A stretch of DNA of 64,000 bases from Polaromonas sp. (GTDB taxonomy: Bacteria; Pseudomonadota; Gammaproteobacteria; Burkholderiales; Burkholderiaceae_C), in contig JAAFJR010000011.1 in the NCBI GenBank assembly GCA_013298945.1, positions 1 to 64,000 of the forward strand, in the 5' to 3' direction. The notes under the pieces were generated by a model. It was not told the DNA's origin, made no database searches, and was given only the letters and a program-made list of their open reading frames with translations. Below are positions 1 to 1,733 of the stretch, piece by piece (the stretch's first letter is position 1; each line of letters opens with the position of its first letter). The position numbers and the translations under genes are program-made.

Positions 1-1733
1 CTACAGCTAGCGGTCAGTCAAGCTTAGCTTCGGGCCAACAATCCACAGCGACCGGTCAATCAAGCCAAGCGACGGGTAGTTTTGCTACAGCTAGCGGTCA
101 GTCAAGCTTAGCTTCGGGTCAGCAATCCACAGCTACTGGTCAGTCAAGCCAAGCGACGGGCAGCTTTGCTACAGCTAGCGGTCAGTCAAGCTTAGCTTCC
201 GGTCAGCAATCCACAGCGACTGGTCAGTCAAGCCAAGCGACGGGTAGTTTTGCCACAGCCAGCGGCCAGTCAAGCTTAGCTTCGGGTCAGCAATCCACAG
301 CGACTGGTCAGTCAAGCCAAGCGACGGGTAGTTTTGCCACAGCCAGCGGCCAGTCAAGCTTAGCTTCGGGTCAACAATCCACAGCGACTGGTCAATCAAG
401 CCAAGCGACGGGTAGTTTTGCTACAGCTAGCGGTCAAAACGCTCAAGCCACAGGTACCGATTCAAGCGCTTTGGGTCAGAATGCAAAGGCTAGCGGCAAA
501 GACTCAAGCGCCTTAGGTCAAAACAGTGTGGCTAGCAACACCAACACAACCGCCAGTGGCCAAAACGCGCAAGCCACAGGCACTGATTCAAGCGCCTTGG
601 GTCAGAATGCAAAAGCCACGGGGACAGATTCAAGTGCCTTGGGCCAAAACAGTGTGGCCAACAATACGAACACTACAGCCAGCGGTCAAAATGCACAAGC
701 TACTGGTCTGAATGCCAGTAGTTACGGCCAAAACGCGCAGGCCAGTGGTGTGAATGCCAGCACCTATGGACAAAACAGTGTGGCTAACAATACGAACACC
801 ACAGCCAGTGGCCAAAACGCGCAGGCCAGTGGTGTGAATGCCAGCACCTATGGACAAAACAGTGTGGCTAACAATACGAACACCACAGCCAGTGGCCAAA
901 ACGCACAGGCTACTGGTGTGAATGCTAGTACCTACGGCCAAGGCTCGACTGCTAGTGGTAACTATTCAACCAGCACCGGTCAAGGCGCTACAGCTACAGG
1001 TACTAGCTCAACTTCTAATGGCCAAGGTAGCAACGCTGCAGGTACCAACTCTACGGCGACTGGCCAAGGCAGTTATGCTGCAGGAGCCAATAGTACAGCG
1101 ACTGGCCAAAACGCCGTAGCAGGTAATGTGAATTCGAGCGCTTTGGGGCAGTCTAGCCAAGCATTTGGCCTGAACAGCACAGCTGTAGGTACGAGCAGTT
1201 TAGCCAGTGGTTCAAATTCAACGGCACTTGGCACATTGTCAGCGGCGACGGGTACACAAACTTTGGCACTGGGTACGAATGCGCAAGCAACAGCCAATAA
1301 CAGCGTTGCATTGGGCTCAGACTCTGTGGCCACACGCGGTGCACAAACATATCAAATCGATTTTTTAAGTACGCAAACATCAGTGGGCGAGGTGTCGGTG
1401 GGTAGCCCAGGTAAAGAACGCCAAATCACCAATGTGGCGGCGGGTTCCGCACCCACAGATGCTGTGAATATGGCGCAGTTCAATGCATCCGCCAACAGAA
1501 TGCGCCAAGGTATTGCATCTGCCGCAGCGTTGGCTGGTTTGGTGCCTGATTCTCGCTCTGAAGGCGATAACCAATTGGCGGTTTCCTTGGGCGGATTTGA
1601 CGGTGCAACATCGATGGCAATTGGCTATATCCGTCGCACACCAGCTGGTATCACCATAAGAGCAGCGATTGCCATCAACGGTAATGGCGGCAGTCGTGTG
1701 GTGTCAAATGTGTCAGCTTCATGGGGCTGGTAA
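1..1733 (+). CDS. Trimeric autotransporter adhesin (YadA/Hia type), 3' part; start lies before the window
   Basis: Partial gene: the frame (first full codon at base 3) is open from the window edge to the TAA at 1731-1733. Seen: hundreds of residues of seven-residue motifs of the type S-x-A-T/S-G-Q-x, the signature of the YadA-like head beta-roll. These are followed by a neck/stalk motif (ERQITNVAAG, then TDAVNMAQF, about 1414-1480) and a C-terminal membrane anchor of about 70-80 residues ending in a terminal tryptophan. Known for the family: type Vc secretion, a trimer with a 12-strand outer-membrane barrel, adhesion to surfaces or host matrix. Signal peptide and passenger start are not visible. 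The head is extremely repetitive at DNA level, so length is likely to vary between strains and the assembly of this stretch could be collapsed. A bidirectional terminator follows. Confidence 0.93.
   Translation, partial: TASGQSSLASGQQSTATGQSSQATGSFATASGQSSLASGQQSTATGQSSQATGSFATASGQSSLASGQQSTATGQSSQATGSFATASGQSSLASGQQSTATGQSSQATGSFATASGQSSLASGQQSTATGQSSQATGSFATASGQNAQATGTDSSALGQNAKASGKDSSALGQNSVASNTNTTASGQNAQATGTDSSALGQNAKATGTDSSALGQNSVANNTNTTASGQNAQATGLNASSYGQNAQASGVNASTYGQNSVANNTNTTASGQNAQASGVNASTYGQNSVANNTNTTASGQNAQATGVNASTYGQGSTASGNYSTSTGQGATATGTSSTSNGQGSNAAGTNSTATGQGSYAAGANSTATGQNAVAGNVNSSALGQSSQAFGLNSTAVGTSSLASGSNSTALGTLSAATGTQTLALGTNAQATANNSVALGSDSVATRGAQTYQIDFLSTQTSVGEVSVGSPGKERQITNVAAGSAPTDAVNMAQFNASANRMRQGIASAAALAGLVPDSRSEGDNQLAVSLGGFDGATSMAIGYIRRTPAGITIRAAIAINGNGGSRVVSNVSASWGW
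3..422 (+). repeat. Five tandem 84-bp coding repeats in the adhesin head
   Basis: Units start at 3, 87, 171, 255 and 339; a sixth begins at 423 and diverges after about 15 bases. Each encodes 28 residues (four seven-residue turns, two canonical 14-residue YadA head repeats). Units differ at only a few mostly synonymous positions, indicating recent duplication or gene conversion. Confidence 0.95.
753..920 (+). repeat. Second 84-bp tandem repeat pair in the adhesin head
   Basis: Two practically identical 84-bp units at 753-836 and 837-920 encode NASTYGQNSVANNTNTTASG plus QNAQASGV. A related unit precedes them and a diverging one follows from 921. It has the same unit length as the upstream array but a different sequence, so the head contains at least two independently amplified cassettes. 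Confidence 0.9.

Follow-up and report, generated by a model that had tools for sequence, protein, structure and literature searches.

A trimeric autotransporter adhesin gene of Polaromonas, broken in the assembly within an array of head repeats that are identical as protein

The stretch of DNA analysed here, which we call the window, comprises 64,000 nucleotides from Polaromonas sp. and starts at base 1 of contig C3 (64,622 bases) in a genome of 17 contigs. At its very beginning, on the forward strand, lies the 3' part of a trimeric autotransporter adhesin gene: an open reading frame at 3-1733 of 576 codons and a stop, open at the 5' end because the window starts with the contig itself. An earlier note on this DNA had named the family, and at the level of sequence the assignment is borne out by matches to YadA_head, YadA_stalk and YadA_anchor above the Pfam cut-offs; the protein would be expected to form a trimer. 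The head part at 33-1334 is a predicted beta-roll of 31 layers of 14 residues, each with glycine at position 8 (PF05658, YadA_head, 205 bits). It is followed by a neck and short stalk at 1422-1526 (PF05662, YadA_stalk, 39.5 bits; cut-off 28.4) and by a YadA-like membrane anchor domain at 1545-1730 (PF03895, YadA_anchor), whose 27.3 bits in the genome search and 25.4 bits in hmmscan exceed the cut-off of 22.7 by merely 3 to 5 bits. YadA_stalk matches the protein once, over 35 residues; there is almost no coiled-coil stalk. The NCBIfam full-length models Ata, EmaA, YadA and BimA gave partial matches far under their cut-offs.

A terminator scan found one terminator-like site, at 1711-1732, overlapping the end of the gene, which does not exceed the yield of shuffled sequences (mean 1.2). 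Neither of the two regions scanned for promoters held a promoter-like site. Adjoining the adhesin gene, at 1947-2429 on the reverse strand, is a small open reading frame that looks lipoprotein-like by eye and has no NCBIfam match over the cut-off.

At the DNA level the head of the adhesin is made of 42-, 84- and 126-bp periods, and both sets of repeats lie in frame in its coding sequence. The five 84-bp units at 3-422 and two at 753-920 described in the earlier note are confirmed to the base, both by Tandem Repeats Finder and by cutting the sequence in register. The program reports the first array as an 84-bp period over 1-436 (5.2 copies, 94% matches, no indels, score 760) and the second as an 84-bp period over 725-941 (2.6 copies, 93%). 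On the forward strand, the full units of the first array run at 3-86, 87-170, 171-254, 255-338 and 339-422, and each encodes the same 28 residues. Next come two 126-bp, three-layer units at 423-674, in which 19 of the 22 variable codons differ silently. The second array (753-836 and 837-920) is unlike the first in sequence; its two units differ at 3 of 84 bases, and two of their three variable codons are silent.

How many units does the first array contain? The five are just the share that lies on contig C3, because the array resumes at the end of contig C11 (472,360 bases), whose last 302 bases are the one other place in the genome where a genome search found the array DNA. There, three full units and 47 bases of a fourth close a reading frame of 610 codons that runs off the contig end (L024:4530-6361, outside the window). 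This frame has what the window part lacks at its 5' end: a start, an N-terminus that is hydrophobic by eye and may be a signal peptide, and a long run of head layers (PF05658, 175 bits) ahead of the units. The arrays on the two contigs share an exact match of 107 bases (window 93-199, L024 6237-6343). Most simply, the two pieces would be the halves of one gene, broken within the array.

Over 49 bases, the end of C11 and the start of C3 agree with one mismatch. The contigs could therefore abut, which would give eight full units; the junction may also conceal more. Since the break falls within the array, the true number of units is not fixed by this assembly. The earlier note had called such arrays prone to collapse in assemblies; the assembly did break inside this one, and units may also have been collapsed. 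End overlaps of 217 or 133 bases were rejected: they carry 10 and 11 mismatches respectively, too many for one sequence. These mismatches also speak against reading both the break and the silent differences between units as faults of assembly or sequencing in a gene with one short array. Short-read assemblies do fail in such arrays, and the 49-base end match would suit that account. The variants, however, sit on third codon positions at 12 of 12 variable columns, which is not expected of sequencing errors and makes them an unlikely source. We regard this explanation as very improbable.

The C11 part also holds the N-terminal domain (L024:4545-5290), about 210 residues before the first layers, alanine-rich and with two cysteines by eye. 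It appears helical in a low-confidence model. Pfam gives nothing for this domain at E up to 1 and the PDB nothing convincing (best E 0.17), and apart from its own genome no relatives turned up in samples of 299 family and 399 order genomes, which share some genomes. ESPR, present in three of eight other adhesins scanned, likewise has no match at E up to 1 anywhere in this one. Going by the general plan of the adhesin family, the N-terminal domain is likely the binding tip. Since hardly any coiled coil separates the head from the anchor, it must be the roll that holds this domain outward.

By the layer table, C11 carries 25 layers of the head and the window 31, which makes 56 unless the contigs overlap by more than 49 bases. 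A cruder layer pattern finds longest runs of 32 (window) and 27 (C11), against at most 20 elsewhere among 116 sequences, chosen as in the array scan below and many of them shortened at their ends. Fourteen PDB chains match at E up to 0.01, led by the head of BpaC (7o23, E 3.5e-45), which aligns with residues 172-501 of the window part, past the array; 3s6l (E 9.5e-16, residues 59-185) overlaps it. AlphaFold2 run on the single sequence gave models too poor to use, with mean pLDDT 44 for the window part (576 residues) and 39 for the N-terminal part (311 residues). The window-part model suggests strands at intervals of 28 residues along the array and a C-terminal helix with four strands, which fits and proves nothing; we give no weight to its 26 listed Foldseek matches, the best at E 3.2. 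Judged by its sequence, the head probably folds as a left-handed beta-roll with some 56 layers or more, the core being threonine/serine in the array. At 0.48 nm per layer, 56 layers amount to an estimated 27 nm or so, of which each unit would contribute about 1 nm.

The paper on BpaC of Burkholderia pseudomallei (PMC9543794) describes a polar core formed by threonine or serine at position 5 and asparagine, serine or threonine at position 7, hydrophilic in 15 of 20 solved layers. It gives 0.48 nm per layer, expansion of the head through a three-layer motif, and solvent-facing charges that are all negative. The C-terminal head of BpaC (7o23) and the head described here share uninterrupted 14-residue left-handed beta-roll layers (here by sequence), expanded three-layer blocks (here the 126-bp period) and hydrophobic layers toward the membrane end. 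Position 5 is threonine and position 7 threonine or serine in each layer of the array, again as described for BpaC. The two differ in that BpaC has 42 layers and not 56 or more, its block is of three layers whereas the most uniform block here is an uncharged unit of two, and its position 3 is asparagine where our array has glutamine or phenylalanine.

Over all 56 layers, position 5 is threonine or serine in 53. Position 7 is serine, threonine or asparagine in 26 and otherwise leucine, valine, isoleucine, tyrosine or alanine, making it hydrophobic in about half of the layers, a further difference from BpaC. Outside the array it is polar in just part of the layers, which argues against a full BpaC-like core. 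Negative-only surface charge, a trait of the BpaC subtype, is not what we find: the 28-residue unit contains no aspartate, glutamate, lysine or arginine, and the head on both contigs has 12 acidic (D/E) and 7 basic (K/R) residues in 799. Because the unit is uncharged where the surface of BpaC is negative, we do not file the adhesin under that subtype, though it may work like the BpaC roll.

One further Pfam match falls on the array. PF21300, a grass antifreeze beta-roll family, scores 38.4 bits on residues 7-77 of the window part (window 21-233; cut-off 30), probably by way of the threonine/serine-rich 14-residue period. An ice-binding role suggested by this match was put low, the C11 part (15.3 bits) being under the cut-off and the other adhesins weak or without a match: in eight others there was one weak hit (16.8 bits) and seven had none at E up to 0.1. 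The match could also be taken to favour a broader proposal, namely that the unit is the binding surface itself, offering many identical sites for one ligand, and that its protein sequence is conserved for avidity and not for spacing. Exact protein identity in all eight full units, while other repeats of the head vary, would fit such a role. Against it stand not only the weak or missing PF21300 matches in the C11 part and the other adhesins but also the placement of the unit's Thr-Ala-Thr on positions 5-7, which by BpaC numbering is core. In addition, near-identical arrays of other adhesins, considered below, are likewise mostly silent in their differences. We therefore judge a binding-surface role improbable, and take the array most likely to be a spacer that sets the reach of the tip.

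What has kept the units alike? The eight full units (five on C3, three on C11) encode identical 28 residues in every case, and they differ on average at 5.5 of 84 bases. Random synonymous codings of the same residues differ at a mean of 26.1 of 84 (minimum 13 in 2000 pairs), and from this gap we conclude that the units descend from one another. All 12 variable columns of the array are third codon positions and all 12 are silent. Among possible single-base changes in the unit, 63 of 252 are silent (29 of 84 transitions). The chance of 12 silent columns in 12 is thus 6e-8 if all changes are equal, 5e-7 with transitions weighted four-fold and 3e-6 with transitions only, figures that treat the columns as independent, which is only roughly true given exchange between units. 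Selection on the protein, besides recent copying, must have shaped the first array to produce such a pattern. Between units dN is 0, and dS averages 0.34 with a maximum of 0.64. The units are duplicates kept identical as protein, beyond merely fresh copies. Other repeats of the same head lean to silent change too, though not wholly: the 126-bp period occurs in three units on C11, where 18 of the 25 codons that vary do so silently.

The variants lie in blocks common to several units, a pattern expected from unit-to-unit copying. The farther apart two variable columns lie, the lower their r-squared tends to be (correlation -0.49, a value as extreme arising in 32 of 20,000 permutations), and all four combinations occur in 21 of the 45 informative column pairs. 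Neighbouring units differ at 4.5 bases (6 pairs), and units that share a contig without being neighbours at 6.4 (7 pairs). Recurrent silent mutation alone seems insufficient, because no decay with distance is expected from it; with eight units, a small sample, the two processes are hard to tell apart. Copying or unequal exchange between units appears the best account of the blocks, and past exchange is in this indirect way supported.

Has the array since come to rest? It could be an old stretch of the head that is now fixed in copy number, its likeness kept by selection on roll geometry. The purely silent differences agree with this, and unit dS values that are not small imply that most units are not fresh copies. 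Yet 5.5 and not 26 of 84 bases differ, with the variants in blocks, so the units must have been copied or converted since their origin, and the 107-base exact match joining the C3 and C11 arrays points the same way. A static array thus strikes us as unlikely. The account we prefer has the units copying and exchanging sequence among themselves while selection purges changes to the protein; their DNA similarity would be high enough for gain or loss of units, and for the break in the assembly.

To place these patterns we scanned 116 sequences, including both parts of this gene (some loci overlap and many are cut by their flanks), for arrays whose period is a multiple of three, with 2.8 copies or more and no fewer than three head motifs in the frame. 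Among arrays of head layers only, the one described here is the most alike, with a mean identity of 0.94; next outside this gene is L128 at 0.795, where silent changes account for 2 of 9 variable codons. In L049 a module of head plus neck has a mean identity of 0.886, and 19 of its 41 variable codons are silent. Near-identical, in-frame arrays in adhesins of Burkholderia metallica (L075), B. lata (L070) and B. catarinensis (L073) resemble ours in that 10 of 12, 8 of 8 and 20 of 22 variable codons are silent, but consist of SLST-type repeats and not of 14-residue head layers. Most high-identity arrays are mostly silent, the exceptions being L049, L090 (7 of 15) and one array of L073 (3 of 7); in less alike arrays, such as L128 and L076 (3 of 10), the rule fails. 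Since other adhesin arrays are also mostly silent, we regard the silent bias as a property of the kind and not of this gene.

In the family sample, 1 of 299 genomes contains the array DNA, and that one is its own. As protein, three units find head-repeat matches in 15 other genomes of 369 in a class sample (best 48% identity, E 1.5e-11); 58 named loci matched, all distant, the first listed with 71% identity over 50 residues. Of the 299 family genomes, 24 have YadA_anchor, which occurs once in the genome studied here, and the neck-anchor part has matches in three of four genomes searched in the genus. In one of these congeners, G001, both adhesin fragments stop at the ends of small contigs, one fragment having the start and the other the anchor; L119 and L120 (contigs C76 and C77) may be halves of one gene, as here. 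In another, G002, the adhesin on C29 ends at a contig end and the one on C39 is whole. The former (L121:3-1076), cut at its contig start, has a passenger of near-identical short repeats of the NTTTTNLTA / NGTITNLTA type.

Of 29 anchor genes across the family, 6 have frames that reach a contig end, including those on G001 C76 and G002 C29; the 29 are those with loci among 53 matches other than the window's own. The number expected is 0.89 for the frames as seen or 1.35 if each is given at least 1000 codons, and the chance of six or more 5.5e-5 or 0.0012, values that rest on rounded genome sizes and contig numbers and on cut frames shorter than the real genes. Arrays of this sort can by themselves split a gene over two contigs, and adhesin lengths taken from draft genomes are for that reason lower bounds.

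Does the number of units go on changing, and with it the length of the fibre, as the earlier note chiefly proposed? The array data come from the genome of one isolate; by analogy, a change in copy number is plausible, in view of what is published on two other systems. One is BadA of Bartonella henselae, whose length, according to one study (PMC8859334), differs between isolates, a difference ascribed there to recombination; long reads are said to be needed. BadA is, like our protein, a repetitive trimeric adhesin, but the varying parts in that account are neck and stalk domains of 68-147 residues and not head layers. The other is the Periscope Proteins (PMC8201768, PMC9704523), in which highly identical tandem repeats form a rod and the number of repeats determines how high a tip domain stands. 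Our array resembles theirs in the high identity of its repeats. It differs in kind, since the definition given covers monomeric chains with individually folding repeats and excludes trimeric autotransporters by name, while allowing that their function may be similar; the accompanying screen sought repeats of more than 50 residues.

Taken together, we consider it quite probable that the part of the gene in the window encodes the membrane-side end of a trimeric autotransporter adhesin, and that the protein's long beta-roll head has grown as blocks of two layers (84 bp, 28 residues) and of three (126 bp) were duplicated. The 84-bp array would serve as a spacer, each unit adding two 14-residue layers, about 1 nm, with a threonine/serine core as in BpaC. 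The roll, nearly without a coiled-coil stalk, would lift the N-terminal tip domain off the membrane, and the units would exchange sequence under selection at the protein level. Copy number may also go on changing. Haemophilus Cha (Sheets and St Geme 2011) is also to be counted among the closest known systems. Our literature search, in which direct queries by gene or strain name were outside the scope, found no paper on this adhesin gene.

A bolder version of this account is possible, and we hold it tentatively, as somewhat short of an even prospect. In a nearly stalkless adhesin, the uncharged threonine/serine-cored array would stand in for the coiled-coil stalk and act as a length dial. Its two-layer units would recombine in and out within a clonal population, each worth about 1 nm of reach for the orphan tip, while selection holds the protein sequence of the unit identical.

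In kind the gene is ordinary, a long-headed member of a well-known adhesin family. What the analysis adds is that the assembly breaks within the array, that the copies in it are kept identical as protein, and that the head is probably a long roll with a threonine/serine-cored stretch and an orphan tip. Looking for silent-only variation is a cheap test that can be applied to any such array to tell mere copying from copying with selection. The orphan tip on its threonine/serine-cored roll is a fair subject for work on roll length and adhesion. If the length dial proves true, the periscope idea would come to cover trimeric autotransporters, and head layers as well.
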